Source: an uncultured Lachnospiraceae bacterium (GTDB lineage Bacteria; Bacillota; Clostridia; Lachnospirales; Lachnospiraceae). From it: 47,051 nucleotides of DNA. This document shows, one piece after another, positions 4,443 to 44,384 of the stretch. The notes below the pieces were generated by a model. The model did no database searches. It was not told the origin of the DNA and saw nothing but the letters and a program-made list of their open reading frames with translations. The DNA lies in assembly GCA_946405625.1 (NCBI GenBank), contig CAMJHQ010000026.1, positions 1 to 47,051 on the forward strand, given 5' to 3'. Position numbers and translations under genes: made by a program. How positions within the stretch are numbered: the first letter of the stretch is position 1; each line of letters begins with the position of its first letter.

Positions 4443-4463
4443 CATATTATTACTATTCCGCAG

Positions 4464-11744: not shown

Positions 11745-11765
11745 TTCTGTTTATTGCTTAGCTTA

Positions 11766-25163: not shown

Positions 25164-26741
25164 TCATCGCTGAATAAATCTGTTTAATTTACACTCATTT
25201 ACAGCCCATCTGTGCAATGCCATGCTGGTATTCTCCGAATAGTGCAGGCCGTCATATGCTTCAAATCCGCTACGTGTCATAAATGAATTTGAATCAAGTA
25301 TATACATATCATTTCTGAGACCCTTTTTCATTCTCTCATTGAATACATTTATACTTGCATTTGTCGTATATATTCCGAACTTCTTTCCGACTGCTTCATC
25401 AACCGGGTTAACTGTCATAATGATCACTTTGTTGTCGGCAACAAAATCATCCGGAAGAGTATTATAAAACTCCAGATATCTTTCAATATTACCGAGATCG
25501 TTCACACCCATGTTGATCACGATTTTCTTTCCCTTCTCATTATACAGAGTCGGGAGTTTTGTCTGCAGCCACACAAGTCCCATACCATACTTGCAGACAT
25601 ATGAGCCTTCCATTCCCTCGCAGGCTTCACTCATTAAAACAAACCTTGAATCTCCAACGAAGATTATATCCGAATTCTTATCTTCTATTATCCTGTCTTC
25701 TACGGTTATCGCATTTCTTCTTTCACGCTCACCATATTTCATATAATGAAGATAGTATTGTTTGTTACTCTCAGTTGAAGTTCCGAAGGCTTTTCTAAGG
25801 TCCGCATAATTTGCTTTATATGCCGCCGGGTCAAAAGTGAAGGATGCTCTTCTGCCTTCCTTCATTCCATATTTTATGAAATGTTTCAGTGCAGCCACAT
25901 CATCATTTCCGAATGCTTTCTTCAGATCCGGATGTCTGTCGATATAATAGTAATAATCATAGACCTTACTGTAATCAACTCCGTCAAGTTCCGTAACAGG
26001 ATCCTGAACCACATCCACTCCCTGTGAAACTCTCTGCTCTCTGTAGCCCCAGATCATATAATGCTCATAATACTTTCTGAGATTACCGCCAAAGGCTGTC
26101 CTCAGATCTCTGTATGCATTCTTGTAAGAATAAACATCGAAAGTTTCTTTGGCCTGACGTCCTTCTCTCATTCCGTGAACGATAAAATGCTTTAATGCAG
26201 CAATATCATCATTTCCGAAAGCTTTCTTCAGGTCAGCATATTTTTCGATATAGAAGTAATAATCATATACCTTGCTGTAATCAACTCCGTCCATAACAGT
26301 AACCGGATTCTGAACAACATTTACTCCCTGTGAAACTCTTCGCTCCTTATAACCCCAGATCATATAATGCTCATAATACTTTCTGAGATCATTTCCGAAG
26401 GCTTTCCTCAGATCCTGATTGGCATTCTTATAAGAGAATACATCGAAGGTCTCCTTGGCCTGTCTGCCTTCTCTCATTCCGTATTTGATGAAATGCTTCA
26501 AAGCAGCTACATCATCGTTTCCGAAGGCTTTCTTCAGATCTTCGTATCTATTGATATAATAATCAAAATCATAAACCCTGCTGTAATCAACACCGTTAAA
26601 CTGTGTGATCCTGATCTTATTCTGTGTAATCTCCGCAGCCTTTACGCTGTCACCGGAACTCATAAAACATGAAAACAGAATGATCAGTCCGAGTAAAATC
26701 GCTACGACTCTCTTCTTCTTTTTAAAATCTGATAAATTCAT
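25164..26741 (-). CDS. Secreted SGNH/GDSL-like hydrolase with three surface repeats
   Basis: 525 residues from ATG 26741; a TTG at 26747 has better spacing to AAAAGGA and may be used instead. A signal peptide (ending about 36) is followed by three copies of the roughly 95-residue repeat (GVDYSKVYDYYYYIDRHPDL... then SYKNAYRDLRTAFG...), about 45-345. The C-terminal domain (about 350-525) has SGNH blocks: IIFVGDSRF with the nucleophile Ser (about 363), INMGVNDL with Asn, and YDGLHYS with the Asp/His pair (about 496-499). Such enzymes often remove O-acetyl groups from glycans. The family of the catalytic domain is clear; the substrate is not. It has its own promoter and a leader hairpin. Confidence 0.88.
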   Translation of the reverse strand: MNLSDFKKKKRVVAILLGLIILFSCFMSSGDSVKAAEITQNKIRITQFNGVDYSRVYDFDYYINRYEDLKKAFGNDDVAALKHFIKYGMREGRQAKETFDVFSYKNANQDLRKAFGNDLRKYYEHYMIWGYKERRVSQGVNVVQNPVTVMDGVDYSKVYDYYFYIEKYADLKKAFGNDDIAALKHFIVHGMREGRQAKETFDVYSYKNAYRDLRTAFGGNLRKYYEHYMIWGYREQRVSQGVDVVQDPVTELDGVDYSKVYDYYYYIDRHPDLKKAFGNDDVAALKHFIKYGMKEGRRASFTFDPAAYKANYADLRKAFGTSTESNKQYYLHYMKYGERERRNAITVEDRIIEDKNSDIIFVGDSRFVLMSEACEGMEGSYVCKYGMGLVWLQTKLPTLYNEKGKKIVINMGVNDLGNIERYLEFYNTLPDDFVADNKVIIMTVNPVDEAVGKKFGIYTTNASINVFNERMKKGLRNDMYILDSNSFMTRSGFEAYDGLHYSENTSMALHRWAVNECKLNRFIQR

Positions 26742-26760
26742 AATCAATCGAAATCCTTTT

Positions 26761-26816
26761 CAATATTTGTTTCCGAAACGGTACTGTACTATCTCCGATT
26801 CTTCTCACAAATATTG
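26761..26816 (-). promoter_or_regulatory. 5' stem-loop of the SGNH gene mRNA
   Basis: Perfect 10-bp arms CAATATTTGT/ACAAATATTG (26761-26770 and 26807-26816) enclose about 36 nt with smaller hairpins. The predicted transcription start (about 26812) falls at the beginning of the stem and its end abuts the AAAAGGA ribosome site. It could protect the 5' end or gate translation. Confidence 0.5.
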
Positions 26817-26818
26817 AA

Positions 26819-26847
26819 ATTTTACCTTATTTGGTTCTTTTTGTAAA
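26819..26847 (-). promoter_or_regulatory. Promoter of the SGNH hydrolase gene
   Basis: Minus strand TTTACA (26842-26847), 17-nt spacer, TAAAAT (26819-26824): one mismatch in each hexamer from consensus. It lies just behind the stop of the CAP-protein gene. Confidence 0.65.
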
Positions 26848-26852
26848 CCGCA

Positions 26853-28406
26853 TTATTTACCCGAAAGAGTCTTATCGATAGCCGCCTTCGCCTGCGAATA
26901 AGTCGCATTTCCGGAAGCCGATCTCTTTTCTCTCTTTCCGTTTCTTATAAAATGCAGATAATACGATGCATAATCATACTTATATGTCTGACGCAGATCC
27001 TTATAATTTACGATGTACTGATATACATTGAAATCTGCCTTTGCCTGACGCCTCTCTCTCATACCGTTCTTTATAAAATGGTTGAGAGTTGCTATATCAT
27101 CATTTCCAAAGGCTTTCTTAACATCAGGGTTCTTTGCCTGATAAGTATTGAAATCATAAACCGCGCTGTAATCAACACCGTTCAGTTTTGTAACCGGATT
27201 CTGAACAGTACTGCAGTTCGTTGCAGATCTGCCCTCTCGCTTTCCGTTCTTAACATAGTGCAGATAATACTTAGGAAGGTCATTGCCAAAGGCCAGTCTC
27301 AGATCCTGATATCTGTTCTTATATGCCTTCACATCAAAACCTGCCGATGCCTGACGGCCCTCACGCATTCCGTTATTCAGGAAATGTCTGAACAGTTTGT
27401 CCTGATCATTTCCGAAAGCAGCTTTCAGATCCGGATACTTATTCGCATAATATGCAGCATTAAAAACTGCCGAATAGTCTATACAGACTCTTCCTTCACG
27501 TTTACCGTTCTTAATATAATGCTGATAATACTTAACCAGATCATTACCAAAGGCCTTCCGCAGATCAGCATAATTATTCTTATATGAGATAACATTAAAT
27601 GTACTGTTTCCCTGACGGCCTTCCTTCATGCCGTACTTAAGGAAATGCTGAAAAGCTTTATTCTTATCACTGCCGAATGCTTTCTTAAGATCGGCATAAT
27701 GACTCAGATAATAATCAGCATCAAAAACAACCGAATAATCAAGTCCGTCTACCTTGAGGCTTCCGTTAAAAGCTTCTTCGATAACTCTGTCACCGAAGCA
27801 CTGAGCCCAGTAAATGTAATATCCTCCGTTCATTTTAACACAGCCGATACCCACACTTTTATATGTTTCGTTGAGGATATTCTTTCTGTGTCCGGAAGAA
27901 TTCATCCAGCTATCCATAACAGATGATGCCGTACTCTGCCCTGCCGCAATATTCTCGCCGCATGCAAAAAGTCCGTTCCATCCGTTTTCCTTACTTGCCA
28001 TAGGATATGCAGAAAAGCATTTGCTTCCGTCAGGTCTTATATGATCAAACTTAACGGTAATCTCAGCTGCTCTACCCATAGCAACATCCATAAGTCTCTT
28101 ATCCATAGTAAGCTTCTTAAGACCGTACTTGGCTCTTTCCTTATTCATTATCTCAAGGACCTGCCAGGCCATATTGTCATCTCGCGTAACATTATATGTT
28201 CTTCCGCCGAAGCTTATACTCTTAAGTATCTGACCATCGCCCGATATCACCGGAGCAACAGTCAAGGCTGCATCTACAGTTTCCGTCGTCTTAGGGAGCT
28301 CAGCTGCAAAAACAGCCTGAGCCGGTAAATAAGCTACAATAAGTACTGCTGTAAGCATCAATGCTATGATGCGTCTTATAGCATTCTCTCTTCTCTTAGT
28401 TCCCAT
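26853..28406 (-). CDS. Secreted CAP-domain protein with three surface repeats
   Basis: 517 residues. A signal peptide (about 1-34, ending VFAAE) is followed by a CAP/SCP domain (about 75-215) with MNKERAKYGLKKLTMD, the His of VKFDHIRPDG, GENIAAGQSTASSVMDSW and SSGHRKNILNETYKSVGIG. CAP proteins of bacteria are secreted and mostly of unknown activity. Three copies of the paired repeat follow (about 222-500, e.g. DADYYLSHYADLKKAFGS and SYKNNYADLRKAFGNDLVKY). A short Ser/Lys tail ends the protein. GGAGG lies nine bases before ATG 28406. No clear promoter was found upstream. Confidence 0.9.
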   Translation of the reverse strand: MGTKRRENAIRRIIALMLTAVLIVAYLPAQAVFAAELPKTTETVDAALTVAPVISGDGQILKSISFGGRTYNVTRDDNMAWQVLEIMNKERAKYGLKKLTMDKRLMDVAMGRAAEITVKFDHIRPDGSKCFSAYPMASKENGWNGLFACGENIAAGQSTASSVMDSWMNSSGHRKNILNETYKSVGIGCVKMNGGYYIYWAQCFGDRVIEEAFNGSLKVDGLDYSVVFDADYYLSHYADLKKAFGSDKNKAFQHFLKYGMKEGRQGNSTFNVISYKNNYADLRKAFGNDLVKYYQHYIKNGKREGRVCIDYSAVFNAAYYANKYPDLKAAFGNDQDKLFRHFLNNGMREGRQASAGFDVKAYKNRYQDLRLAFGNDLPKYYLHYVKNGKREGRSATNCSTVQNPVTKLNGVDYSAVYDFNTYQAKNPDVKKAFGNDDIATLNHFIKNGMRERRQAKADFNVYQYIVNYKDLRQTYKYDYASYYLHFIRNGKREKRSASGNATYSQAKAAIDKTLSGK

Positions 28407-28675
28407 AAGCCATGTCCTCCGATAAAATGCATTTATAACTCGTTATAACATTTTTAACCCCCTATTAGTCTCTTTTAATACAATATAATCCTCTGTGTAT
28501 AATTTTACAAAATTCAACTTATCATGTCCATATAAACTTACCCTCAGACACACCAAATCTGATGATCATCCGCCGCACACACGTGACCTTCGTCCTGTGA
28601 GGCTTCACATGGTTTCCGGGCATAATTCCCATGCATAATTCCCATGCATAATTCCCATGCAAATATATGGCATCA
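28407..28675. other. Intergenic region with a short tandem repeat
   Basis: 269 bases between the CAP gene and the upstream NlpC/P60-like gene. It holds three exact tandem copies of the 13-mer CATAATTCCCATG (28621-28659), starting 17 nt from the upstream stop, and a small hairpin TGTGA/TCACA near 28600. I see neither a convincing terminator nor a good promoter. Confidence 0.55.
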
Positions 28676-30805
28676 TCAGTGTTGTGACACCGGCAGAAGA
28701 TATATCCTGTTTTCCGAAGAAACCGGCGTTACATTTGTTATCTGATTTCCCGGATTGCTTCCGTCATAAAGCACCGTGTAACCAAGTCTTCCGAGTCCCG
28801 TCGTGGCAACAGCCGTATGCCACATCTTATCATAGATCACCTCATCGCCCCAGAAGAATCCCATATGATTATCATACATATTTCCGTACTCATCATAATA
28901 TCCGTAAGAGCCTGTACTATCAAAGATCAGAATATCTCCCTTCTTCGCTATGCCGTCACTAAGAAGTTCCGATACAGAGCTGTAGGTATAAACATCTATA
29001 TCGCCTTTCGACCTATGCTCATCCGCAAAAGCGACCCATGTGGATGCCTGATACGGATTAGGATATTCTGAAAGGATTTCCGAGCTGTATGTCGTATCCC
29101 TTATAACTATATCGGTATTGCAGCCTATACTCTGAAGAGCAATGGTCACAAAGCTCGCACACTGAATTCCGTAACTTATGCTGTACTTCTCATAAAACTC
29201 CGGACTATACACATCAATATATGGCTTTCCGAGATAGGCCTTTTGATTTTCGGTAAGATAATCTACCAGATTCCGCTTCCCGCCGAGATAATGATCAATC
29301 GATCTCTTATTATCCTTAGCATATAAAATCCCCGGAGCCACGTCTGCACGAACTCCGAAAAGCTTTATCCATCCGAGGCCCTCAAGTGTATTTATCTCTC
29401 CCTGTTCAGAAGTATATATATACTTCTTCACTTCCGACTTAGCTTTCGGATTGATCAGCGTATAATAATCCTGTCTTGATGTCGGATCAATATACCAGCA
29501 TATTCCTTCGGAACGCCATCCGTTCTTCAGGCAATTATCATATTCGGATTTATGTTGTGTAAATCTGTGCCCATATCCCGGCTTATATATTCTATAGACC
29601 GGAATCCCCGTTCCGTCTCTATAGCTCCATACCATACCTTCGCTTGACCACTCCTTCGATCTGAGAAGCTTATCCTTCTCGGCAATATCAGAAGTCAGAA
29701 GATGCTCTCCTGTCGATCTGTTATAAAGCCTGAAAACATCTCCGGATACAACCTGTCCGTTCAAGGTTTTCTCGCCTGCTGTCTTATCTCCTGCAGCATC
29801 GGTATAAACCGCCTTACGGCCTTCCTTCTTACCATACTTCAGATAATGCATATAATAATCCTTAAAATCATCATTATATTCATTCTGAAGATCTTCATAT
29901 AGATTGGAATATACACGGATATTGAAGTTCTGATTCGCAATCCTCCTCTCCTTCATTCCGTTCTTTATGAAATGTCTAAGAGTCGCGATATCATCATCAC
30001 CGAATGCGTCCTTCACATCCGAATTTCTTTTCTGATATTCACTAAAATCATAAACAGCACTGTAATCCTTACCGTCAAGTCCGGTCACCGGATCCACAAC
30101 TGTTTTCACATTCTCGGAAACACGTTTTTCTTTTGTTCCGTACTTTATATAGTGAAGATAATATTTTGTAAGATCATTTCCGTATGTAAGTCTGAGATCC
30201 TGATAGGCTCTTCGATAAGAGTGAACATCGAAGCTCTGCTTAGCCTGTCTGCCCTCTCTCATTCCGTTTCTTACAAAATGTCTGATTGCAAGAACATCAT
30301 CATCACCGAAAGCCGCTCTGAGATCCGGATATTTAGCAAGATAATAATCGGCATCAAATACCGCGGAATAATCAGTTCCCTTATAAACCGTGATACTGCC
30401 GACCCTCTTATCACAGCCCGTAGCCTTACGTCCCTCACGCAGACCGTATTTCAGATAATGAAGATAATACTTCTTATAATCATCCCCGAATGCTGTACGT
30501 AGATCGGGATATTGCCTCATATACGAATTGATATCAAATTCCCTTGATGCAATTCTCTTTTCAGACATTCCTCGATTTTCAAAATGTCTGTGTGCATTAA
30601 CTCTGTCTTCTGCCGAACCCGAACCGTATACGGCTTTTACATCAGGATTCATTTCCATATAATACTCATAATCATATATGGGTCCGTAAAAATCATCGAT
30701 CGGCTCTTCTTCGGCAGCATAAACCGTCTTTGAATATAGCAATAAAAGCAGCATAAATGAAATCATCATCTCAACTGCTCTTTTTCTTCTTCGTCGTGAC
30801 ACCAT
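28676..30805 (-). CDS. Secreted protein: three surface repeats, DUF5648 domain, NlpC/P60-like C-terminus
   Basis: 709 residues from ATG 30805 (GGAGG four bases upstream); the longer frame to 30847 is not needed and would spoil the signal peptide. The signal (about 1-31) is followed by three paired repeats (about 35-330), a domain with FRLYNRSTGEHLLTSD and VYRIYKPGYGHRFTQ (about 355-490), which matches DUF5648-type repeats from secreted hydrolases, and a C-terminal domain (about 518-709). That last domain has YGIQCASFVTIALQ and YDNHMGFFWGD, so it looks like a remote NlpC/P60 cysteine peptidase with Cys and His in place. A role in cutting peptidoglycan or a related peptide is inferred. Order of modules differs from the other repeat proteins: here the anchor is N-terminal. 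Confidence 0.82.
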   Translation of the reverse strand: MVSRRRRKRAVEMMISFMLLLLLYSKTVYAAEEEPIDDFYGPIYDYEYYMEMNPDVKAVYGSGSAEDRVNAHRHFENRGMSEKRIASREFDINSYMRQYPDLRTAFGDDYKKYYLHYLKYGLREGRKATGCDKRVGSITVYKGTDYSAVFDADYYLAKYPDLRAAFGDDDVLAIRHFVRNGMREGRQAKQSFDVHSYRRAYQDLRLTYGNDLTKYYLHYIKYGTKEKRVSENVKTVVDPVTGLDGKDYSAVYDFSEYQKRNSDVKDAFGDDDIATLRHFIKNGMKERRIANQNFNIRVYSNLYEDLQNEYNDDFKDYYMHYLKYGKKEGRKAVYTDAAGDKTAGEKTLNGQVVSGDVFRLYNRSTGEHLLTSDIAEKDKLLRSKEWSSEGMVWSYRDGTGIPVYRIYKPGYGHRFTQHKSEYDNCLKNGWRSEGICWYIDPTSRQDYYTLINPKAKSEVKKYIYTSEQGEINTLEGLGWIKLFGVRADVAPGILYAKDNKRSIDHYLGGKRNLVDYLTENQKAYLGKPYIDVYSPEFYEKYSISYGIQCASFVTIALQSIGCNTDIVIRDTTYSSEILSEYPNPYQASTWVAFADEHRSKGDIDVYTYSSVSELLSDGIAKKGDILIFDSTGSYGYYDEYGNMYDNHMGFFWGDEVIYDKMWHTAVATTGLGRLGYTVLYDGSNPGNQITNVTPVSSENRIYLLPVSQH

Positions 30806-30960
30806 AAACCCTCCGGCGAAATAGAAAAATGCAGATACCATCCACACATATCAATAGTTACAAATCTCCCAAAATTAACTATCGCTTCGCTATCATTACG
30901 ATACCGTCACAAAAATGATAATTTTATTCAGCTATATTTAATTGTCTTATAATTATGATA

Positions 30961-30990
30961 TAGGGTGCCGCAGCACTCTGTGGCACCCTA
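30961..30990 (-). terminator. Terminator-like hairpin at the end of the dapF-rmlA run
   Basis: 13-bp arms TAGGGTGCCGCAG/CTGTGGCACCCTA with one wobble pair, 21 nt behind the rmlA stop. On the minus strand it is followed by TATCATAATTATAAG, only moderately U-rich. It closes the long unidirectional run. Confidence 0.65.
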
Positions 30991-31010
30991 TTATAAATAC
31001 TTTTTTCAGT

Positions 31011-31880
31011 CTACAGACCGTTTGCTATATCAACAAGATAAGCACCGTATGCAGTCTTCATAAGAGGTTCAGCAAGTTTAAGCAGCTGGTCTCTGTCTAT
31101 AAAACCCTTTCTGAAAGCAATCTCTTCGATACAGGATATATACATACCCTGTCTCTTCTGAAATGCAGCAACAAAGTCCGCAGCATCAAGAAGCATATCA
31201 TGATTGCCTGTATCCAGCCATGCAAATCCGCGGCCGAGAGTTTCGACCATAAGAGTACCTCTGTCGAGATATTCATTATTGATCGATGTAATCTCTATCT
31301 CACCTCTTGCAGAAGGCTTAACATTCTTTGCGATCTCAACTACATCATTATCGTAGAAATAAAGTCCCGGTACTGCATAATTAGATTTCGGATGTTCCGG
31401 CTTCTCCTCTATTGAAAGAGCCTTTCCTTCCGCATCAAACTCTACTACGCCATACTCTCTCGGGTCCTTTACGTAATAACCAAAGATTGTTGCTCCCTTT
31501 TCTCTTTCTGCTGCTCTTGTAAGAACATTTGAGAAATGCTGTCCGTAGAATATATTATCTCCGAGAACAAGTGCTACTCTGTCATTTCCTATAAACTCTT
31601 CACCGATTATAAATGCATCCGCAAGTCCTCTCGGGCTTTCCTGCACTGCATACGAAAAGCTCATTCCAAGCTGTGATCCGTCTCCGAAGAGTTCCTTGAA
31701 TACAGGAAGATCTCTCGGTGTAGAAATGATAAGAACCTCTCTTATCCCTGCAAGCATAAGCGTTGACAGCGGATAATAGATCATCGGCTTATCATAAACC
31801 GGCATGATCTGCTTTGATACCGCCTTTGTAAGCGGATAGAGCCTTGTGCCGGAGCCTCCGGCAAGTATTATTCCCTTCAT
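31011..31880 (-). CDS. rmlA: Glucose-1-phosphate thymidylyltransferase
   Basis: 289 residues, the usual length. The start [18 protein letters not shown], the glucose/nucleotide site [19 protein letters not shown] and the acidic metal site [10 protein letters not shown] are those of RmlA. It makes dTDP-glucose from dTTP and glucose-1-phosphate, the first step toward dTDP-L-rhamnose. The rmlB, rmlC and rmlD genes are not in this window. GGAGG lies six bases before the start, 19 nt behind the autolysin gene. It fits a rhamnose-containing surface glycan exported by the Wzm/Wzt pair in the same run. Confidence 0.96.
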
Positions 31881-31899
31881 GTCATTCCTCCCCTATCTT

Positions 31900-34398
31900 C
31901 TAATATGTCTTGATAGCTGACATAATCTTCTTTATCTTAACTGCATAATCCTTATCGCTTGCCCAGCCCTTACCCCAAGGATTGTTCGGGATAGAAAGGT
32001 ACTCGACATACATACCTGTTCCTCTTGTTACAAGGTGGAATCTCGGATCTACCTGAGGATTCTTAAGAGGATCCTTTGAAGCATAAGCCTTAAGGTGCTG
32101 AACCTGCGCTCTTACACCTTCTCTGACTGTATTGAACTTAGCTACATTTCTGTTGGCTGCACTGTCAGTAGCACCCATTCCCGCGAAGTTCTTATCTTCA
32201 ATGCTTACAAGTCCGCCGTACCTGAGGTAACCTGTTTCAAGAAGCATCTGAGCAAATGCGACCTCAACCTTTACACCTTCGGCCTTACACTCTTCGATAT
32301 ATATCTGGCAGAAAGCTTCGATTGTCGGAGCATCTGTACTCTTATAATAATCAGGGTATTTCGCATTTGCATTAAAATACTTAACCATCTGATTCTTTGT
32401 TACCGATGCAGTACCCATTATCGGATAATAAGCAGCTGTACCCTTAGCCTTTTCTCTAAGATTCTGATAAGTATTCTTATCATAACTTTCCTTAGCCTGG
32501 CGCCACTCCTTGATACCATAGGTTGCAAAATGTTTGATCAGTGCTTCTTCATTATATGCTCCGAAAGCCTTCTGAAGATCGGTATTATGCTCATAATAAT
32601 AATTATAATCATATACCGCACCGTAATCTATTCCGTTATATACAGTCACCGCATTCTGAAGCTTCGGAACACCCGTTGAAACACGATGTTCAAACTGTCC
32701 GTGCTTTATATAATGCGTATAATAAGCTGTCAGATTTCCGCCAAAGGCTTTTCTGAGATCCTGATTTGCATTTCTGTAAGAAACTACATCAAAGGTTGAC
32801 TTTGCCTGTCTTCCTTCTTTCATTCCGTACTGAACAAAATGCTTGAGAAGCTTATACTCATCATATCCGATAGCCTTCTGAAGGTCCTTATACTTATTAT
32901 AATAATAATTCATGTCATAAACGGCACTGAAATCCACATTATTAAATACTGTAAGCGGATTCTGAAGTGTCGGTGCACCTGTTGCCTTACGGCCTTCCTT
33001 TCGGCCGTTCTTTATATAATGCAGATAATACTTTACTAGATTGTTTCCGAAAGCAACTCTGAGGTCGGCATACAGATTTCTGTAAGATTGAACATCGAAG
33101 GTTGCCTTCGCCTGACGTCCCTCTTTCATTCCGTACTGAACGAAATGCTTTATAGCCTTCTGATCGTCATATCCGATTACCGCTCTTAAGTCTGCATACT
33201 TATTAATATAATAATCATACTCATATACAGCACTGTAATCAACGCCGTTATAAACGGTTGTTCCAGAAAGCTTCTGTTTCTTCTTTTCCTCTTCACTCAG
33301 TGCTCCCAGGCCCTTACGTTCCTCTCTGAGTCCGAACTGCTCATAATGCGTATAATACTTCTTCAGATCTCCGCCGAAAGCCTTCTGGAGATCGGTATAA
33401 TTATTCTTATAATCATCGACATTGAAGGTTGCTATAGCCTGACGGCCTTCCTTCATTCCATATCTTGTGAAATGTATAAGTGCTCCGACAGGATCGTTTC
33501 CGTATGCAGCCTTAACATCATCATTATGGCTTATATAATAATTAAAATCATATACATCGCTGTAATCGACTCCTCTGTTGATCGTAACAGCGCCTGTACT
33601 CTGTGAAAAATTATTCAGACCATAGTAATTGATGATTCCTCTTGCATCGGCCTGTGCAAGAGCCTTAAGCTTTGCATCTGTAGATAAGTATTTTGATAAA
33701 TCGGAAGTATTGGTAATAAATGCATGTTCCACAATGATTCCGGGAACATGGTTTAACTTACCCTGTCTTACGATTGAATAATAATCACTTAGCGATCCGT
33801 CCGGATACTTGGTACCATTCGCTGTCAGTCTCATAAAAAGACCCTTGTTAGAAAGCCCAAGCTTTACAAGTTCGTTCAGGATAGACTGTCCGAGACCGTT
33901 TGCTTCTTTATAAACCTGCTTATCATAGTTCGCATTCGGAACACATATCAAAGCACCGTTTGCATCAGTATTATCAGATGCATTATTATGAATACTGATG
34001 AGGGCATCCGCATTTACTGTTGCAGCATATGCACCAATTCTACTAAAGTCAACATTTAGATTTAAACCGGTTCTGGTCATATATACCCTAACATTCGGAT
34101 ACTTCTCAAGTTCAGCCTTTAGATAAGTAGCTATCTTGAGATTTACATCTCTTTCTAAGTAGGTTACACCATTAAGCGTTCCTTTCGCTCCTACATCAGA
34201 CCCATCATGTCCCGGATCGATCAGGAATGTATAAACTGCTCTGTGGTTTGTGTTCGCAAGATCAACAGATGCTGCATCGTTTGTAACTGTTTCGGATGTT
34301 ACTCCCGCTGCCTTTACTGTTGGTACATTAATCATGGAAATCGCTAAGAGTATCACTAAAATCGCTGCAACTACCCTTCTTCCCGATTTTAATTTCAT
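31900..34398 (-). CDS. Bifunctional autolysin: amidase_3, surface repeats, glucosaminidase
   Basis: 832 residues from ATG 34398 (AAAAGGAG upstream); the longer frame to 34455 overlaps the previous gene and is not used. After a signal peptide (about 1-31) comes an N-acetylmuramoyl-L-alanine amidase (amidase_3, about 53-245) with its zinc ligands His in DPGHDG (about 64), Glu in YLERDVNL (about 80) and His in SIHNNA (about 134), and the catalytic Glu in VEHAF (about 222). Three complete paired repeats plus a degenerate half follow (about 265-640), then a glucosaminidase domain (about 655-832) with LLETGYLRYGG (Glu about 719). Both ends cut peptidoglycan while the repeats sit in the middle. The gene starts 13 nt after the methyltransferase gene. 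Confidence 0.94.
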   Translation of the reverse strand: MKLKSGRRVVAAILVILLAISMINVPTVKAAGVTSETVTNDAASVDLANTNHRAVYTFLIDPGHDGSDVGAKGTLNGVTYLERDVNLKIATYLKAELEKYPNVRVYMTRTGLNLNVDFSRIGAYAATVNADALISIHNNASDNTDANGALICVPNANYDKQVYKEANGLGQSILNELVKLGLSNKGLFMRLTANGTKYPDGSLSDYYSIVRQGKLNHVPGIIVEHAFITNTSDLSKYLSTDAKLKALAQADARGIINYYGLNNFSQSTGAVTINRGVDYSDVYDFNYYISHNDDVKAAYGNDPVGALIHFTRYGMKEGRQAIATFNVDDYKNNYTDLQKAFGGDLKKYYTHYEQFGLREERKGLGALSEEEKKKQKLSGTTVYNGVDYSAVYEYDYYINKYADLRAVIGYDDQKAIKHFVQYGMKEGRQAKATFDVQSYRNLYADLRVAFGNNLVKYYLHYIKNGRKEGRKATGAPTLQNPLTVFNNVDFSAVYDMNYYYNKYKDLQKAIGYDEYKLLKHFVQYGMKEGRQAKSTFDVVSYRNANQDLRKAFGGNLTAYYTHYIKHGQFEHRVSTGVPKLQNAVTVYNGIDYGAVYDYNYYYEHNTDLQKAFGAYNEEALIKHFATYGIKEWRQAKESYDKNTYQNLREKAKGTAAYYPIMGTASVTKNQMVKYFNANAKYPDYYKSTDAPTIEAFCQIYIEECKAEGVKVEVAFAQMLLETGYLRYGGLVSIEDKNFAGMGATDSAANRNVAKFNTVREGVRAQVQHLKAYASKDPLKNPQVDPRFHLVTRGTGMYVEYLSIPNNPWGKGWASDKDYAVKIKKIMSAIKTY

Positions 34399-34411
34399 AA
34401 ATTCTCTCCTT

Positions 34412-36310: not shown

Positions 36311-36317
36311 ATAAAAC

Positions 36318-37613
36318 TCACTCTACCGTTATAACCGAATTCATATCATAGAATCCGACCGTATTTTTTGCAGAAACAATCGCAAGTGAACATACATCAT
36401 ACAGTCTGTGATATACTCTGAAATCGTTATTTTCATATCTCGTACAGCCCAGCGAAAGTATATACTGTCCGCCCTGCATATCTGCATTCTGTGTAAAGCT
36501 CACGGTTCTTTCATCTCCCGGAGACATGTTTCCAAGATTCACTCCCTCAAACATGGTATTGGTTCCCGAGATATCCGTGCCCTTTGTATCCTTTATTGTT
36601 ACTGCAACGATCGGATCACTCGTCGGAATATTTGTCCTGATCTTCACCTTAACAGTAAACTCTTCACCCTTCATAAGGGTTCCCGTGATCTTGCCGGATC
36701 CGTCAACCACAGCAAAATCAATTATCTCTATCAGCCTGTCTCCATATTCCTGCAGATCCGGATTAAGCTGAAGTTTATCCTTCATAAGGCCGCTGCTTTC
36801 CGACTCTCTTTCCGACTTACTTTCCGACTTGCTTGAAGTTTCATCACCCGGATTCTTCTGAGGCGTGTCATCGTCATCCAGCATTCCGACCATTGCTTTC
36901 TTATATAGATCAATTATCTGAAACGGCTTTCCTTCGCCGATTTTCTTTCCTTTATCAAGAAGTATAGCCTTATCACAGTATTTCTGTATACTCGACAGAT
37001 CGTGGCTTACAAATACTATGGTCTTTCCGGCTTCCTTAAACTCTTCGAATTTCTTATAGCACTTAGCCTGGAAGAATACATCTCCTACAGAAAGTGCCTC
37101 ATCAACTATCAGTATCTCGGGATCGATATTTATAGCAACCGCAAAAGCAAGTCTTACGAACATTCCCGAGGAATAAGATTTAACGGGCTGATTAACAAAT
37201 TCACCGATATCGGCAAAATCAAGTATCGACTGAAGTCTTGAATCTATCTCCTCCTTGGAGAAGCCCATCATGGTTCCGTTGAGATATACATTTTCAATTC
37301 CTGTATATTCCATATTGAAGCCGGCACCCAGCTCCAGAAGTGCACTTACTCTTCCGTCAATCTCAACCTCACCCGAGGTAGGAGTAAGAACCCCTGTAAT
37401 GATCTTGAGTATCGTCGATTTACCTGCACCGTTGGTTCCTATTATTCCTATGCACTCGCCCTTATTAATATCAAAGGACAGATTCCTTAGGGCATAATGC
37501 TCTTTATATTTTCCACTTCCAAACCCGAGAGAATCCCTGAGCCTGTCAATGTTTCTGTCATATAATTTATAAAGTTTTGTTACATCCTTTACACGAATGG
37601 CATATTCGCTCAT
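36318..37613 (-). CDS. Polysaccharide ABC transporter ATP-binding protein with C-terminal glycan-binding domain (Wzt-like)
   Basis: 431 residues. The ATPase half (about 1-240) has Walker A GIIGTNGAGKST, the signature YSSGMFVRLAFA, Walker B ILIVDEALSVGD and the switch His in VFVSHD. A Ser/Glu-rich linker (about 250-280) leads to a C-terminal beta domain (about 285-431) of the Wzt_C type (PF14524), which in O8/O9a systems recognises the capped chain end before export. GAGG lies nine bases upstream of the start. It forms an exporter with the permease gene 54 nt upstream, and is followed within seven nt by the WbdD-like gene. Teichoic-acid transporters (TagH) have a similar ATPase but lack this kind of C-terminal domain. 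Confidence 0.93.
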   Translation of the reverse strand: MSEYAIRVKDVTKLYKLYDRNIDRLRDSLGFGSGKYKEHYALRNLSFDINKGECIGIIGTNGAGKSTILKIITGVLTPTSGEVEIDGRVSALLELGAGFNMEYTGIENVYLNGTMMGFSKEEIDSRLQSILDFADIGEFVNQPVKSYSSGMFVRLAFAVAINIDPEILIVDEALSVGDVFFQAKCYKKFEEFKEAGKTIVFVSHDLSSIQKYCDKAILLDKGKKIGEGKPFQIIDLYKKAMVGMLDDDDTPQKNPGDETSSKSESKSERESESSGLMKDKLQLNPDLQEYGDRLIEIIDFAVVDGSGKITGTLMKGEEFTVKVKIRTNIPTSDPIVAVTIKDTKGTDISGTNTMFEGVNLGNMSPGDERTVSFTQNADMQGGQYILSLGCTRYENNDFRVYHRLYDVCSLAIVSAKNTVGFYDMNSVITVE

Positions 37614-37667
37614 CTATACAAACCTCTCTCAGTTCCGTCCGGATATCCGATTCCCGTTTTCGACCTT

Positions 37668-38465
37668 CTATAATACATCCGCAAAATGTATCTTGAGCTT
37701 CTTAAAAACTCTCATTCCCAGAAACAGGATCAGCAGCGTCACTGCCCAGAAGTAAAGAGTCCACAGACCTTTTCCTTCCCATACCCATCTTCTGAAGAGC
37801 AGGCTGTCTCTGAAACCGTCAACGATATAGTAAACCGGATTGAGCTTAAATACCTTAAGCAGTACCGGATGATCCTTCAATCTGTCTGCCGCATTCCACA
37901 TGATCGGCGTAAGCCATATTCCAAGCTGCAGCACGAAGATATTTACAAACTGGAACATATCCTTGAAAAATGCTGTGATCGCAGATGTAAGATGAATAAG
38001 TCCCAGGAGCAGCACTATATTGCAGATGATGTAATACGGTATCTGCAATATATGTATGCTCGGAAAGTACCCGTAGCAGATATGTATTACAATCGACAGA
38101 ACTATAAAAAAGATATGTACGAAAAATGCAGAGATTATCTTAACAAGCGGCAGAATATCAATATTGAAAACAACCTTCTTTACCAGATAGCTGTATTCAA
38201 TAAGGCTGTTGGTTCCGCTTGATAAAGCATCCGAAAGGAAAAACCATGGAACAATACCTGAAACCAGATACAGCACAAACGGGTATCCGGTACTGTCACC
38301 CGACTTAAATCCAACCTCAAAGATCAGCCAGTAAACAAGTACTGTCACGATCGGCTGGATAAAAGCCCAGACAATACCGAGATACGATCCCGCGAATTTA
38401 TTTCTAATATCATTTTTAGCCAGTCTTAGTGCTGTGCCTCTGTTGTTCCAGATAGATGCTATCAT
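37668..38465 (-). CDS. Polysaccharide ABC transporter permease (Wzm-like)
   Basis: 265 residues with about six membrane segments. The start ALRLAKNDIRNKFAGSYLGI with VWAFIQPIVTVLVYWLIFEV after it, and the late NIFVLQLGIWLTPIMWNA and KLNPVYYIVDGFRDSLL, are typical of Wzm/TagG-type ABC-2 permeases that export lipid-linked glycans. Its ATG overlaps the stop of the NlpC/P60 gene by four bases (ATGA), so the secreted hydrolase and the exporter are likely translated together. The ATPase gene follows after 54 nt. Confidence 0.94.
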   Translation of the reverse strand: MIASIWNNRGTALRLAKNDIRNKFAGSYLGIVWAFIQPIVTVLVYWLIFEVGFKSGDSTGYPFVLYLVSGIVPWFFLSDALSSGTNSLIEYSYLVKKVVFNIDILPLVKIISAFFVHIFFIVLSIVIHICYGYFPSIHILQIPYYIICNIVLLLGLIHLTSAITAFFKDMFQFVNIFVLQLGIWLTPIMWNAADRLKDHPVLLKVFKLNPVYYIVDGFRDSLLFRRWVWEGKGLWTLYFWAVTLLILFLGMRVFKKLKIHFADVL

Positions 38466-40039
38466 TTCGATGCTTTTCTCTTCTCCCTGTATCCATACTT
38501 AATATAATGAATATAGTATTGTCTGTTATCATTTCCGAACGCAGCTCTGAGATCGCCGTTACGTCCGCTGTTCTTATAGAATACGATGTTGAAGGATTCC
38601 TTTGCGATTCTTCCTTCTCTCATACCATTCTTGACGAAATGTTCAAGTACAGCCTTATCATCGTTTCCGAATGCACGCTTAATATCAGGATATCTGTTTA
38701 TATAATAATTATAATCATATACCAGGCTGTAATCTAAGTGCGGTCCGTACTTTCCTGTATAAACCGTCTCATAATCATTCAGCTGAGTCACACCTGTCGC
38801 AACTCTCTTTTCCCTGATACCATACTTCATATAATGTTTATAATATGATTCTGTATTGCTTCCGAAGGCACGACGAAGATCTCTGTAATTGTACATATAT
38901 GACTGAACATCGAAGTTCTTCTTCGCTATTCTTCCTTCCTTCATACCTCTGGTTACGAAATGCTTGAGTGTCTGCTCATCTTCCTCACCGAAGTACGCTT
39001 TGATATCCGGATTCATCTCCTGATAATATCTGAAGTCATATACAGCCGAATAATCAACACCGTTATATACTGTAACAGGATTGAGAACCTTTACGGCATT
39101 TCTCTGTTCTCTGATTCCATACTTAAGATAGTGCAGATAATACTGCTTCTGAGATGTACCGAAGGCCTTTCTCAGATCTTCATAATTTCTTCTGTAAGCT
39201 GTGACGTTGAATCTTTCGCTTGCCTGACGTCCCTCACGCATTCCGTAATTTATGAAATGTGTAAGATACTGCTCTGCAAGCTTAGCATTTTCTTCCTTTG
39301 AATTATTAGCAGACGGTAAACCGAGTACTGCAACAACATCAGGATGATGCTCTCTGTAATACTTATAATCATAAACCGGTGAATAATCCACACCTAAGAG
39401 AACTCCGTTTTCCGGATCATAGAATACATTATTTGATGATACACCGTATGGTCTTACGATGATCCATCCGCCGCCCGCATCATATCCTCCGAAATATGAA
39501 GATGCCCAAGGTGAAAGAAGACTATGCTCCTGTACACCGACACCCGGATTAAGTGCGGAAACCGCATTTCCGTCACCGGTTGCGATTGCAACATGATCAG
39601 TAGTGATAATGAGATCACCGGCCTGAGCAAGCTTCGGATCCTTACCTACATATGTGCCGAACTGCTTATAGCTGTAAAACATCCAGCCGTTTGTCTCACT
39701 TTCAGAATCGTTTCTGTAAGGCCACAGATTAATTCCGAACTTCTCGAAAATAGCACATACGAAACCGGAGCAGTCAACTCCCGTTTCAAGATTCTTTCCG
39801 GCATATACATAATCAACCTTACCGATATAGGATCTTGCCATTGCAACTATTTCATCGCCCTTGGTCTTTCTGCCGTTATTCTGATTCTGCTGATTCTGGT
39901 TCTGATCTGTTGTCTCTTTTGTCTCATCAGCTCTAACAGTACTTGCCGCAGGTGTTGTAAATGCAAGCGACGCACCAATGGCAAATGCCATAGCAAAGCT
40001 GATCACTCTGGTTCCTATTCTGCGTTTTTTCAAATTCAT
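38462..40039 (-). CDS. Secreted NlpC/P60 peptidase with three surface repeats
   Basis: 525 residues. A signal peptide (about 1-37, ending TVRADE) and a Gln/Asn linker precede an NlpC/P60 domain (about 62-195) with the catalytic Cys in GVDCSGFVC (about 88) and His in TTDHVAIATG (about 148). It should cut peptide stems of peptidoglycan. Three paired repeats (about 212-523) follow; the first carries an insert of about ten residues (LPSANNSKEENAK). GGAG lies eight bases before the start. The stop overlaps the Wzm-like start. A weak promoter candidate lies in the 139-nt gap upstream. Confidence 0.93.
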   Translation of the reverse strand: MNLKKRRIGTRVISFAMAFAIGASLAFTTPAASTVRADETKETTDQNQNQQNQNNGRKTKGDEIVAMARSYIGKVDYVYAGKNLETGVDCSGFVCAIFEKFGINLWPYRNDSESETNGWMFYSYKQFGTYVGKDPKLAQAGDLIITTDHVAIATGDGNAVSALNPGVGVQEHSLLSPWASSYFGGYDAGGGWIIVRPYGVSSNNVFYDPENGVLLGVDYSPVYDYKYYREHHPDVVAVLGLPSANNSKEENAKLAEQYLTHFINYGMREGRQASERFNVTAYRRNYEDLRKAFGTSQKQYYLHYLKYGIREQRNAVKVLNPVTVYNGVDYSAVYDFRYYQEMNPDIKAYFGEEDEQTLKHFVTRGMKEGRIAKKNFDVQSYMYNYRDLRRAFGSNTESYYKHYMKYGIREKRVATGVTQLNDYETVYTGKYGPHLDYSLVYDYNYYINRYPDIKRAFGNDDKAVLEHFVKNGMREGRIAKESFNIVFYKNSGRNGDLRAAFGNDNRQYYIHYIKYGYREKRKASK

Positions 40040-40144
40040 AAATCACTCTCCGTAAAACTCACAATATCATTTATCCAACCCGGCTCAGTTGAGCCTGATC
40101 ATATACTTGAAAGCGTTAACACTTCTTAAAAAACAACTCACAAC

Positions 40145-40173
40145 ATACTAACAAAGCCTTTACAAAAAATCAA
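40145..40173 (-). promoter_or_regulatory. Possible promoter before the NlpC/P60-wzm-wzt segment
   Basis: Minus strand TTGATT (40168-40173), 17-nt spacer, TAGTAT (40145-40150). It is a moderate match but sits in the only gap above 100 nt within the dapF-rmlA run. The leader then forms GGCTC/GAGCC around AACT (near 40090). Confidence 0.35.
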
Positions 40174-40178
40174 CTTTA

Positions 40179-42149
40179 TTAATATGCCTTACGCTTTTCC
40201 TTGCTGCCCCACTTGATATAGTGCATGTAGTAAGATTTGTTGTCTCCTCCGTAAGCAGCTCTGAGATCCGCATAATTTGCTTTATAAACCTTAAGATTGA
40301 AGGTCTTTATCGCCTGTCGGCCTTCCCTCATTCCATGTGTTACAAAATGTCTGAGTACGGCCACTTCGTCATTGCCGTAAGCTCTCTTAACATCGGGATT
40401 ATTATTCACATAGTACGTATAATCATATACCTTGCTGTAATCCACTCCGTTATATACCGTAGTTCCCTGCCTCAGCTCTGTGATTCCTGTGGTTATGCGG
40501 TTTTCTTTATATCCTCTTCTGATATAGTGCATATAATATGCAGTATTATCATTTCCGAAAGCAGCTCTCAGATCCCTGTAGCCGAGCTTATAGGATTTTA
40601 CATCAAAGGTTTCTATAGCTCTTCGGCCTTCCTTCATTCCATACTTAATGAAATGTCTGAGTACGGCAACATCATCTGCTCCGTAAGCCTTCTTAACATC
40701 AGGATTATTCTTCAGATAATAATAGAAGTTATATACCTTGCTGTAATCCACTCCGTCCAGCTTGGTAACAGGATTCATAAGAGTCGTAACTCCCACAGCC
40801 TTACGGCCTTCCTTATAACCTCTTCTTATAAAATGCAGATAATACTGCGGCAGATCTCCGCCAAATGCAATCCTGAGATCGGCATTTGCATTTCTGTAAG
40901 ACTTGACATCAAAATCAGCCTTTGCCTGTCTGCCTTCCTTCATTCCGTGTGTTACGAAATGCCTCAGTACTGCAAGATAATCATTTCCGAATGCCTTCTT
41001 CACATCGGCATGATGACTTACATAATAGTTATAATCAAATACTCTTGCGTAATCGACTCCGTTATATACAGTAACCGGACCCGTAGGCTTTTCCTTTGCC
41101 GCACGGTCAAGACAGGTCTTCTTGAACCATGAACCTGTCGTTGTAAGATCCGAGTCTGTCCAGCCCGAACGCTTGCTGCAGCTTGTCTTCAGATAAGCTG
41201 AGCTTTCTCCCTTGTTGGAGAGATGCCAGCAGAAGAAGCTGATACTGTACTGATCAAAAAGTGCCATCCATTTGTTTGCACTGTCTGTATTGTAGCTTCC
41301 GTTACCGCTTGCATCACATATTCCGAATTCGGAACAGAATACCGGCACTCCACTATTGAGCGCAGACTTAACATTGTCATAAACCCAATTTCCGTCTCCG
41401 CCTATATGCGTAGCAGAGTAGAAATGTACCGTATACATCGTATTTGAATAAGAAAGCTTATGAGCCGCAACCTCATCCGGTTCCTGCGACCAGGTATTCG
41501 TACCTACGATGACTACTGCCTGAGTATATTTCCTTATAACAGGAAGAATCTGATTGGCATAGGAATACAGATCATTTCCGCTTCCGTTATACCACTCGGT
41601 ATTGACCGGTTCGTTGCATATCTCATAAAGTACATTTCCGTAGCTTCTGTACTTTGAAGCATATTTATCGAAAAAGCTTATCGCACTGCTCTTCCAAGTA
41701 TTCGGATTTGCAGTTCCTCCGTAAGCATCATGTACATGCCAGTCTATCAGCACATACATTCCCAGGTCCTTCGCTATCGATACAGCCTTGTCTATATAGC
41801 CATCCATCCGTGATGCGGCTCCTTCAGTATATCCTCCCTGTGTAACATACACCGGAAGTCTTACCGCATTTACTCCGAAGCTGTCCCGGAGTGTTTTGAA
41901 GGATTCTGTGGAAATATAGTTATATCCGACATCCCACTGAAGGCCGTGCAGCGACGCGCCTCTCAGCTGAAACTTCTCATTATGAGAATCCTTCAGATAT
42001 ATTCCGTCAACATGGAGTTCTCCGTGTTTTCCGAAAGGTGTACTATTATAATCTTCAGCAGCTTTTACATTTTCCCCTCCCGGTACTATGAAAATACCGG
42101 CTATAAATACCATTAACGAAAGCAGTAAGCTTATTACTCTTTTCTTCAT
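40179..42149 (-). CDS. Secreted GH5 endoglucanase-like enzyme with three surface repeats
   Basis: 656 residues. The signal peptide (about 1-31) precedes a glycoside hydrolase family 5 domain (about 35-345) with FQLRGASLHGLQW, NAVRLPVYV, LIDWHVHD, the acid/base Glu in YEICNEPVN (about 179), YTVHFYSATH and the nucleophile Glu in PVFCSEFGI (about 271). It most resembles bacterial beta-1,4-endoglucanases (GH5_2-like), so cellulose or a related beta-glucan is the likely substrate. Three paired repeats (about 362-656) follow to the very end. It starts 24 nt after the CAP gene, with GAGG upstream. A plant-fibre enzyme held on the surface suits a gut or rumen lifestyle. Confidence 0.94.
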   Translation of the reverse strand: MKKRVISLLLSLMVFIAGIFIVPGGENVKAAEDYNSTPFGKHGELHVDGIYLKDSHNEKFQLRGASLHGLQWDVGYNYISTESFKTLRDSFGVNAVRLPVYVTQGGYTEGAASRMDGYIDKAVSIAKDLGMYVLIDWHVHDAYGGTANPNTWKSSAISFFDKYASKYRSYGNVLYEICNEPVNTEWYNGSGNDLYSYANQILPVIRKYTQAVVIVGTNTWSQEPDEVAAHKLSYSNTMYTVHFYSATHIGGDGNWVYDNVKSALNSGVPVFCSEFGICDASGNGSYNTDSANKWMALFDQYSISFFCWHLSNKGESSAYLKTSCSKRSGWTDSDLTTTGSWFKKTCLDRAAKEKPTGPVTVYNGVDYARVFDYNYYVSHHADVKKAFGNDYLAVLRHFVTHGMKEGRQAKADFDVKSYRNANADLRIAFGGDLPQYYLHFIRRGYKEGRKAVGVTTLMNPVTKLDGVDYSKVYNFYYYLKNNPDVKKAYGADDVAVLRHFIKYGMKEGRRAIETFDVKSYKLGYRDLRAAFGNDNTAYYMHYIRRGYKENRITTGITELRQGTTVYNGVDYSKVYDYTYYVNNNPDVKRAYGNDEVAVLRHFVTHGMREGRQAIKTFNLKVYKANYADLRAAYGGDNKSYYMHYIKWGSKEKRKAY

Positions 42150-42173
42150 GGTTTTTCCTCGCTACTCTATAAA

Positions 42174-44384
42174 TTATTTACCGTTTCTCTTCTCTTTATA
42201 TCCCCACTTAATATAATGCATATAGTAGGATCTGTTATCATTTCCGAAAGCCTGTCTCAGGTCTGCATATCTGGCCTTATATCTCTGCATGTTGAATTCG
42301 GCAGAGCCCTGTCTTCCTTCTCTCATTCCGTTGTTTACGAAATGGCGGATGACAGCCTGTTCATTGTTTCCAAAGGCTTTCTTTACATCAGGATTGTTAT
42401 TTACATAGTATGTATAATTATATACCCTGCTGTAATCTACCCCGTTATATATCGTGGTGCCCTGCTGCAGTTCGGTTATTCCGGTAGCCTTACGCTTTTC
42501 TCTGTAGCCCCATCCGATATAATGCAGATAATATGACTTGTTATTGTTTCCGTATACAGCTCTGAGGTCGCCGTAGCCGAGAATATATGATCTTACATCG
42601 AAATTCTCACTGGCTCTTCTTCCCTCTCTCATTCCACTGTTAATGAAATGTCTGAGAGTTGCAATATCGTCTTCTCCGAAGGCCTTCTTTACGTCAGGAT
42701 TATGATTCACATAATAGTTGTAATCATATACTCTGCTGTAATCTACACCGTCCAGCTTGGTAACAGGATTGACTACATGCGGAACGCCTGTTGCTATACG
42801 GCCTTCTCTGCTTCCGTACTTGATATAATGTTCATAATACTTCGGAAGACTGTTTCCGAATGCAAGTCTGAGATCCTGATATGCATTCTTGTAGGAATTA
42901 ACATCGAAGTTACCCTTTGCCTGTCTTCCTTCTCTCATTCCGTTTGTAACGAAATGCTTGATGGCTCCTTCAGGATTTCCGTTAAATGCAGCCATAAGAT
43001 CCGGATACTTCTTTAAATAATATACATAGTCATAAACCTTGCTGTAATCAACTCCGTTATAGACTGTAGTTCCCTTTATATTAGATTCGGACGGGTCGCT
43101 GATCTTCGACATGTCCTCTCCCATACTGAAGAAATCTACAGAATAATTAATTATAACAGCATTTCCGTTCTTATCCTTGAGTCCCTCAACTTTTACATTA
43201 TATCTTCCGCTGTAAGCAAATGCTCCGAGCTTTGATGAACCGATCTGGAACATTATGCAGTTTCCGATACCATAACTGTTTGTATCAACATGGAAATATG
43301 ATCCTGTCATATCAGACATTACAGGTGATGACTTATCATATGCCGATGTCAGTACCCAGCTCTTTCCGTCGAGCGGTCTTGTGATCGTAATCTTTGCGGA
43401 ATTAAGCACACTTTTGGATGTATTAAACTTGCTTGGGTTAAGTGTGATAGTCCACGGCGTATTGATGTTGAAGATATCATTCGGGAAGTTGCCGCTTGCC
43501 GGCCATGATATAAAATCATAATCCGATACAGAGGCACTTGAATCAAATATCTTTGATACCATATAGCTATGACCGTCTGTACTCTCGGCATATCCCAGAC
43601 CTATCTTTCCGAGATAAGGATACAGGAACCATCTCCTGTGTCCGGCAGTTGTAAGATTCTGTGTCGAATTATTATCATTCATACATCCGTAAATGGACTG
43701 CTGAAGCGAATACTTCGGATCATAACCCGCCCTCATAGATATATTGCTGCTTGAAGTTGCATCATATCCATAAGAATAGAATGTTGAATCCATATCCGAA
43801 GGTCTCGGAGGATAATGCGACAGACTGAAGCTCGGATCTGCATTTCTGCTTGCCGCAAGAAGTACCGCACCATACTGTGCTCCGTAGCTTCCGTAGCAGG
43901 AATCATAATCCAATGTTACGCTTCCGAGTCCTGCAACATATCTATAGAAATTAATGAAATAATATCCCGAATTGGTAAAGTTGGTATCAAGTTTTCCGAT
44001 GGAATACGGATATACCGTTGAAGGAGCAACCTGAAATATCCTGGATACGGTATTTGACTTAACTGTTCCGTACTTAGATATGATCTGCTGCTGAGTAGGC
44101 TTCTTTATACTATTTACTCCACTCTGTGTATATGTAGTTACGGCAAGGTCCTGTGATTCACCGTATCCTATGGTCGGAGCCGCATCATACGCACTGTAAT
44201 CTTCAGCAAATTCATGTGTTACAGGCTCGGCTTCTTCAGACTCCGGATCATCGGAATTTTCAGCCGCATATACTACCGATGCATATTTCTCACCCGCAAA
44301 TCCGTCAATAAAAGGTACAGCTGCACCCGTTGAGAAAATAAGTGATGCCGCAAGAATAATGCCTCTTAAAAATCTCTTTCTCAT
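42174..44384 (-). CDS. Secreted CAP-domain protein with extra beta domain and three surface repeats
   Basis: 736 residues. A signal peptide (about 1-40, ending VVYAAE) and a Glu-rich stretch come first. A divergent CAP domain (about 115-280) follows with YYFINFYRYVAGLGSV, the His in FSLSHYPPRPSD and LTTAGHRRWFLYPYLGKIGLG. A beta-rich region (about 290-425) of the kind that often follows CAP in Clostridia comes next, then three paired repeats (about 440-733). Its start overlaps the dapF stop by four bases. The activity is unknown. Confidence 0.88.
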   Translation of the reverse strand: MRKRFLRGIILAASLIFSTGAAVPFIDGFAGEKYASVVYAAENSDDPESEEAEPVTHEFAEDYSAYDAAPTIGYGESQDLAVTTYTQSGVNSIKKPTQQQIISKYGTVKSNTVSRIFQVAPSTVYPYSIGKLDTNFTNSGYYFINFYRYVAGLGSVTLDYDSCYGSYGAQYGAVLLAASRNADPSFSLSHYPPRPSDMDSTFYSYGYDATSSSNISMRAGYDPKYSLQQSIYGCMNDNNSTQNLTTAGHRRWFLYPYLGKIGLGYAESTDGHSYMVSKIFDSSASVSDYDFISWPASGNFPNDIFNINTPWTITLNPSKFNTSKSVLNSAKITITRPLDGKSWVLTSAYDKSSPVMSDMTGSYFHVDTNSYGIGNCIMFQIGSSKLGAFAYSGRYNVKVEGLKDKNGNAVIINYSVDFFSMGEDMSKISDPSESNIKGTTVYNGVDYSKVYDYVYYLKKYPDLMAAFNGNPEGAIKHFVTNGMREGRQAKGNFDVNSYKNAYQDLRLAFGNSLPKYYEHYIKYGSREGRIATGVPHVVNPVTKLDGVDYSRVYDYNYYVNHNPDVKKAFGEDDIATLRHFINSGMREGRRASENFDVRSYILGYGDLRAVYGNNNKSYYLHYIGWGYREKRKATGITELQQGTTIYNGVDYSRVYNYTYYVNNNPDVKKAFGNNEQAVIRHFVNNGMREGRQGSAEFNMQRYKARYADLRQAFGNDNRSYYMHYIKWGYKEKRNGK

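Follow-up and report, generated by a model that had tools for sequence, protein, structure and literature searches.

The SLH domain (PF00395) is a non-covalent anchor to wall glycan and usually occurs in threes. For the cell wall proteins of C. difficile, PMC4973711 gives a glycan, the polysaccharide PSII, as the ligand of the CWB2 domain (PF04122) and describes that loss of any one of the three CWB2 motifs abolishes anchoring, and in PMC9045149 the binding domain of a C. difficile phage endolysin is related to this host anchor. Choline-binding repeats, about 20 residues in length (PMC5817068), are found as CWB1 on the polysaccharidases of Butyrivibrio proteoclasticus (PMC2914790). Here we describe arrays of a different repeat on seven proteins encoded by contig CAMJHQ010000026.1 of an uncultured Lachnospiraceae bacterium (the window, that is, the whole stretch of 47,051 nucleotides analysed). 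The repeat is real, patchily widespread, and without a curated model, and the array as a whole is best explained as a non-covalent cell wall-binding module, with a probability of roughly three in four.

The original prediction, made from the letters of the window, held that seven proteins with unrelated catalytic domains share one module. This was borne out by an iterated hidden Markov model of the half-unit (39 positions), which detected 43 half-units of 44.0-71.3 bits each, against 9.1 bits for the best domain when ten array proteins were shuffled 200 times each (2000 sequences). Half-units of about 39 residues are of two alternating types, A and B, and in the 52 aligned half-units among 61 detected, Y6, G32, and R37 were invariant and D12, H27, and E35 were conserved to at least 90%. 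Three pairs are indeed present in six proteins (six half-units each) and three and a half in the autolysin (seven half-units; open reading frame, ORF, 31900-34455). An A-B pair, put at about 95 residues in the original prediction, measures about 89 residues plus a linker; the pair alignment included 19 pairs and the array alignment 28 arrays. All seven ORFs are on the minus strand, as seen from the translations (plus-strand translations hit stops); the original prediction named no strand. The arrays are listed below with their longest frames and partner domains.

25704..26597, minus strand: array of six half-units (three pairs) in ORF 25164-26747, with a C-terminal domain without family, SGNH-like by eye
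26910..27749, minus strand: array of six half-units in ORF 26853-28406, with CAP at the N-terminus
29804..30700, minus strand: array of six half-units near the N-terminus of ORF 28676-30847, followed by DUF5648 and a sub-cut-off CHAP
32488..33576, minus strand: array of seven half-units in ORF 31900-34455, flanked by Amidase_3 and Glucosaminidase
38465..39397, minus strand: array of six half-units in ORF 38462-40039, with NlpC/P60 at the N-terminus
40182..41063, minus strand: array of six half-units in ORF 40179-42149, with a GH5 cellulase at the N-terminus; used for the fold model
42177..43058, minus strand: array of six half-units in ORF 42174-44384, with a sub-cut-off CAP

The partner domains differ, as had been stated. 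The internal ATG codons at 26741, 30805, and 34398, which the original prediction had taken as right-hand limits, look like better starts. Judged by eye, the N-termini of all seven proteins are basic, with a run of hydrophobic residues and an end resembling A-x-A, which makes their secretion plausible, and no LPXTG sorting signal was recognized at their C-termini, read by eye only; three sortase genes are present in this genome. The isoelectric point (pI) of the seven arrays is 8.2-9.6 and their tyrosine content 11-13%. At the limits used, a total of ten proteins of this genome carry the repeat, the three in addition to those in the window being C21 (779 residues, seven half-units), C52 (612 residues, YkuD-like by eye, nine half-units), and C9 (1875 residues, two half-units). 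Stretch L033 of the same genome encodes at 2233-7851 a protein about 1870 residues long in which parts resembling subtilase and SpaA were recognized by eye; it has one A-B pair in mid-protein and a possible sorting signal at its end.

A constant number of three had been offered as an argument for an anchor, and this argument fell. After exclusion of five ORFs that touch stretch ends from a total of 88 array ORFs, 83 complete proteins from 19 well-matching genomes were surveyed at a limit of 5 bits, at which a few proteins may be undercounted. The number of half-units per protein was 2 (four proteins), 4 (one), 5 (two), 6 (43), 7 (14), 8 (eight), 9 (seven), 10 (two), 11 (one), and 12 (one), so that three pairs are only the mode (43/83) within a range of 2-12 half-units, and the count is odd in 24/83. 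The array forms the end of the protein in 53 of the 83.

The fold of a three-pair array, that of the GH5 protein, was predicted with AlphaFold2 from the 28 aligned arrays. A confident all-helical chain was obtained, with a mean predicted local distance difference test score of 94.5 and no residue below 70. The model contains 18 helices, each half-unit contributing one helix of 12-15 residues and two 7-residue helices, with short strands or bridges between them; amphipathicity had been read as two helices per half-unit, and the model has three.

In the profile search, the repeat was not covered by any Pfam or NCBIfam model that reached its cut-off. Weak matches on or beside the arrays (CBM-like_2, PG_binding_5, NF003342, NF003344, NF047376, DUF7342, and PF21393), all below cut-off, were taken as chance; CBM-like_2 on one array, for instance, scored 13.3 bits against the 27 required. 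Among Protein Data Bank sequences, the half-unit profile had no match and the pair profile a single one that looks like chance (VpsR, E 0.28). The statement that the module is neither SLH nor CWB2 was upheld, since no match to PF00395 or PF04122 was found in the genome (97.8% complete assembly) at E 0.001 or in the seven proteins. No description of the repeat was recognized in the open-access literature searched. Cel5A of Eubacterium cellulosolvens may be an earlier sight of the module, which could lower its novelty. The repeat is missing from the part of a table of known wall-binding domains consulted in the review PMC5817068.

The reading of the array as a cell-surface anchor, proposed in the original prediction, gains support from endolysin architecture, from linkage to a glycan exporter, and from the prevalence of wall enzymes among its partners. 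Queries of viral contigs with the array identified ten distinct contigs (one of the queries returned none), L128 being the same contig as L127, and L135 and L136 encoding the same 241-residue protein; the family-library scan covered the viral array proteins apart from those of L130 and L135-L137. Six contigs encode a PHROG endolysin with two or four half-units behind the catalytic domain, which is of the amidase type in L127, L131, and L134, whereas L129, L132, and L133 have a different one that looks CHAP-like by eye. Tail, tape-measure, or terminase genes adjoin the endolysin genes of L127, L129, L131, and L133, and the sole scanned neighbour in L132 gave no match. In these six endolysins the array is a non-catalytic region joined to an enzymatic domain, the architecture of an endolysin cell wall-binding domain, and because it occupies the usual place of that domain, behind the catalytic one, wall anchoring becomes the more credible; the CWB2-related endolysin domain of C. 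difficile is a precedent. On viral contig L130, the gene at 3369-8714 precedes one for a minor tail protein and encodes a 1782-residue protein with one A-B pair, which by position and size is perhaps a tape measure protein. The sole array match in the phage collection, MT836085.1, was not used as phage evidence: it is an UNVERIFIED, unannotated record with two array proteins carrying DUF5722 and choline-binding repeat, and may be a bacterial contig.

Partner domains were counted in 79 complete proteins with at least four half-units, which gave 103 non-array parts of at least 80 residues; many are orthologues, so the counts are not independent. Wall enzymes were the commonest. The counts were Amidase_3 (12), NlpC/P60 (nine), Glucosaminidase (eight), transglutaminase-like (eight), polysaccharide deacetylase (seven), CAP (seven), GH25 (four), YkuD (four), and phage lysozyme (three).

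The window also holds a set of genes for a putative exported glycan.

37668..38465, minus strand: Wzm-type ABC-2 permease, whose start shares 4 bases with the end of array gene 38462-40039
36318..37613, minus strand: Wzt-type ATPase with a C-terminal Wzt_C domain, confirmed by profile
34412..36310, minus strand: 632-residue methyltransferase-containing protein, relatives of which adjoin wzm/wzt in other genomes
31011..31880, minus strand: nucleotidyltransferase, RmlA-like by reading (Pfam NTP_transferase)
17623..18771, minus strand: LytR-CpsA-Psr (LCP) protein, candidate glycan ligase

A WbdD-like capping role of the 632-residue protein was rejected, as its methyltransferase part alone matched anything. 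In seven of ten array-rich genomes of the genus, wzm/wzt and an array gene are no more than 10 kb apart, and so they are in other genera (G395, G139, and G091), where Wzm is 26-54% identical to that of the window. Altogether the linkage was found in this genome (OWN), RGIG9269, bin186, RUG222, YSB2008, RGIG4867, G470, G395, G139, and G091, mostly together with a relative of the 632-residue protein; the Wzt_C profile was applied to the window protein, and elsewhere the same region aligns at 46-95% identity. A probability calculated for the linkage depends on assumed cluster sizes and on assumed independence, and no weight is placed on it. RmlA-like genes are near arrays at several loci. In the genus sample, a Wzm orthologue was present in 10/10 array-rich genomes and 26/51 overall, and in 18/22 genomes with any array versus 8/29 without (Fisher p = 1.9e-4, uncorrected for kinship), the 250-bit orthologue limit and the limit for 'array-rich' having been chosen after the scores were known.

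Pair-profile matches, counted with the source genome included in every sample, were found in 32/150 genomes of the family sample, 4/299 of the phylum sample, and 22/51 of the genus sample; the last fell into three groups, 29 genomes with no pair match, 12 with 1-4, and ten with 12-55. Among named relatives (Eubacterium, Lachnospiraceae, and Clostridia or Clostridiales records, several from rumen; YSB2008; and one metagenome-assembled genome labelled Saccharibacteria), 14 loci matched, ten of which hold arrays, the other four having matched through the GH5 part. The Candidatus Saccharibacteria-labelled genome encodes, on L087 (7080-8891), a protein of 603 residues whose three full pairs (six half-units) are about 49% identical to a window array, and a full dTDP-rhamnose-type gene set is present beside this gene; its array may reflect transfer or mis-binning.

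Orthologous proteins with at least five half-units were compared between genomes. Between OWN and RGIG9269, catalytic parts are 73% and arrays 71% identical (six pairs of proteins), whereas between RUG222 and UBA2864 catalytic parts are 73% identical and arrays only 50% (four pairs), against a non-orthologous level of 48%. Arrays within RUG222 average 57%, and they have in common (L079 and L115; alignment A3) the wording HFVEHGMxEGR whatever domain is attached, as if homogenized in the strain. The pattern is suggestive of arrays changing in concert inside one strain, from a common ligand or from plain gene conversion. In Mantel tests on five genomes, Wzm and array divergence correlated with r 0.73, a value reached in 7 of 120 permutations; the corresponding permutations were 14 for Wzt_C, 13 for the methyltransferase protein, and eight for the catalytic parts (r 0.42).

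The original prediction overlooked the homology of the half-unit with a repeat of about 33-41 residues that Proteobacteria and Cyanobacteria have in RTX- or type 1 secretion system (T1SS)-type proteins and in glycosyltransferases. With one array as the tblastn query, 78 plasmid records matched at an E of 1 or less; the best E among the 40 matches listed was 6e-34. Azospirillum, Bradyrhizobium, Sphingobium, Rhodospirillum, and the cyanobacteria Trichormus and Euhalothece are among the hosts of these 40, and calcium-binding or hemolysin-type proteins, an M10 peptidase, glycosyltransferases, and an FkbM methyltransferase are among their annotated products. The wider repeat is present in RTX/T1SS-type proteins of Azospirillum, Sphingobium, Rhodospirillum, and cyanobacteria, and in glycosyltransferases of Acuticoccus, Roseovarius, and Enterobacter. 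At all seven plasmid loci examined, the repeat units align to the array motif, and the profile-profile probability is 98.2. A profile of 14 glycosyltransferase-type units in turn detected 48 domains above 8 bits in the ten array proteins and none in 2000 shuffles, nine of the ten reaching E 1.3e-15 or better and C9 E 0.006 (best shuffle, E 0.53), although these units had originally been chosen by the array profile and the reverse direction is not fully independent. Six proteins scanned gave only weak sub-cut-off Pfam or NCBIfam matches to the wider repeat. The wider repeat differs from the array in that no A/B alternation was noticed and that its proteins use another secretion route or are presumably cytosolic. 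On the Enterobacter hormaechei IncY plasmid (L093, 3774-8598), adjacent genes for a hypothetical protein and a glycosyltransferase, both with the wider repeat, are located downstream of a set of genes for polysaccharide export and an ABC transporter. A speculative and rather doubtful extension would make the half-unit a helical repeat that reads glycans throughout the bacteria: glycosyltransferases would use it to keep hold of the surface glycan as it grows, secreted proteins and the endolysins of phages to dock on the finished one, and in Lachnospiraceae it would have become a stackable wall anchor matched to the exported polymer of the strain.

Other functions have to be weighed on the same evidence. 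Binding of the array to peptidoglycan itself, the exporter linkage merely reflecting a shared surface locus, would fit the commonest partners, which cut or modify peptidoglycan, the presence of the array on endolysins, and the several array genomes without an exporter near the arrays; it is nevertheless unlikely, because the wzm/wzt linkage recurs in four genera with co-occurrence within the genus, and because matches in 32/150 family-sample genomes are patchier than expected for a universal ligand. Carriage by GH5 and GH9 enzymes could point to a plant polysaccharide-binding module, like a carbohydrate-binding module, but wall enzymes are the commoner carriers and plant binding would be of little use to phage endolysins, so this is improbable. 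Helical repeat chains often bind proteins, and with several array proteins per genome a protein-protein scaffold assembling enzymes into a surface complex can be imagined; phage endolysins, however, would require the same partner, and the wider family is found in unrelated glycosyltransferases and RTX-type proteins, which leaves the scaffold little chance. A ligand-free structural spacer would agree with the variable copy number, but hardly with the invariant Y6, G32, and R37 and the nearly invariant D12, H27, and E35, nor with the 53 of 83 proteins that end in the array, where there is nothing to space, and is very improbable.

Several observations weigh against a glycan-binding wall anchor. 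LysM is also present on four of the six endolysins (the array of L131 is without LysM), so that their principal binder may be something other than the array. Some partners fit poorly, namely GH5 (five), GH53 (four, weak), GH9 (three), GH127 (one), papain-type peptidase (four), and subtilase (one). The pI of the C21 and C9 arrays is close to neutral (7.3 and 8.0), and with a predicted template modelling score of 0.73 the overall shape of the array is uncertain. Wzm was not found near arrays in the stretches examined of G056, G010, G070, G084, and G047, and the exporter is on a different contig from the arrays in UBA2864 (G491), G453, and G478. Four of 22 array genomes are without a Wzm orthologue and eight of 29 array-free genomes have one, and the limits behind these counts were, as said, set late. 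Array divergence tracks the exporter weakly, and RUG222 has a fairly close exporter yet arrays at background level.

With these points included, we hold a cell wall anchor role in Lachnospiraceae with good confidence. Binding to the wall is very probable; the glycan exported by the neighbouring Wzm/Wzt is a slightly favoured candidate for the ligand, and that this glycan contains rhamnose and is attached by LCP is a tentative suggestion. Each half-unit of about 39 residues would fold as three helices, and 2-12 of them would stack into a tyrosine-rich chain, basic in the seven window proteins, that keeps secreted wall hydrolases, deacetylases, transpeptidases, and some plant polysaccharide hydrolases on the cell's own surface. 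The chain would hold to the Wzm/Wzt glycan, presumably rhamnose-containing and presumably linked to peptidoglycan via an LCP ligase, and phages would use the same module on their endolysins. If true, a large family of gut and rumen bacteria would have a further non-covalent wall anchor in addition to SLH and CWB2, one that would account for the retention of polysaccharidases and autolysins that have no other known anchor, phage endolysins would supply a ready-made binding domain, and a repeat of Proteobacteria and Cyanobacteria with no model in the curated libraries searched would receive its first testable function.

The choline-binding repeat PF01473 had no match in the seven array proteins, and three other proteins of the window match it.

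4464-17420 and 1205-2056, same locus: three large choline-binding-repeat proteins and a LicD-family gene

Choline-binding repeats together with LicD are likely a second wall-anchor system at this locus, for phosphocholine, which the original prediction overlooked. CWB1 of B. proteoclasticus represents the same idea as the array, wall-binding repeats on the plant polysaccharide enzymes of a rumen bacterium, the array unit being about 39 residues. Like SLH, the array in its proposed role would be a non-covalent anchor to wall glycan, and it differs in lacking a sequence profile match. CWB2 of the C. difficile cell wall proteins (PMC4973711) is a unit of about 90 residues, present in threes like the array, at either protein end, and combined with varied domains. 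The CWB2 triplet is obligatory, whereas arrays range over 2-12 half-units and 40/83 proteins have a number other than six. Because the unit number varies, odd counts included, an additive chain is likelier for the array, unlike CWB2.

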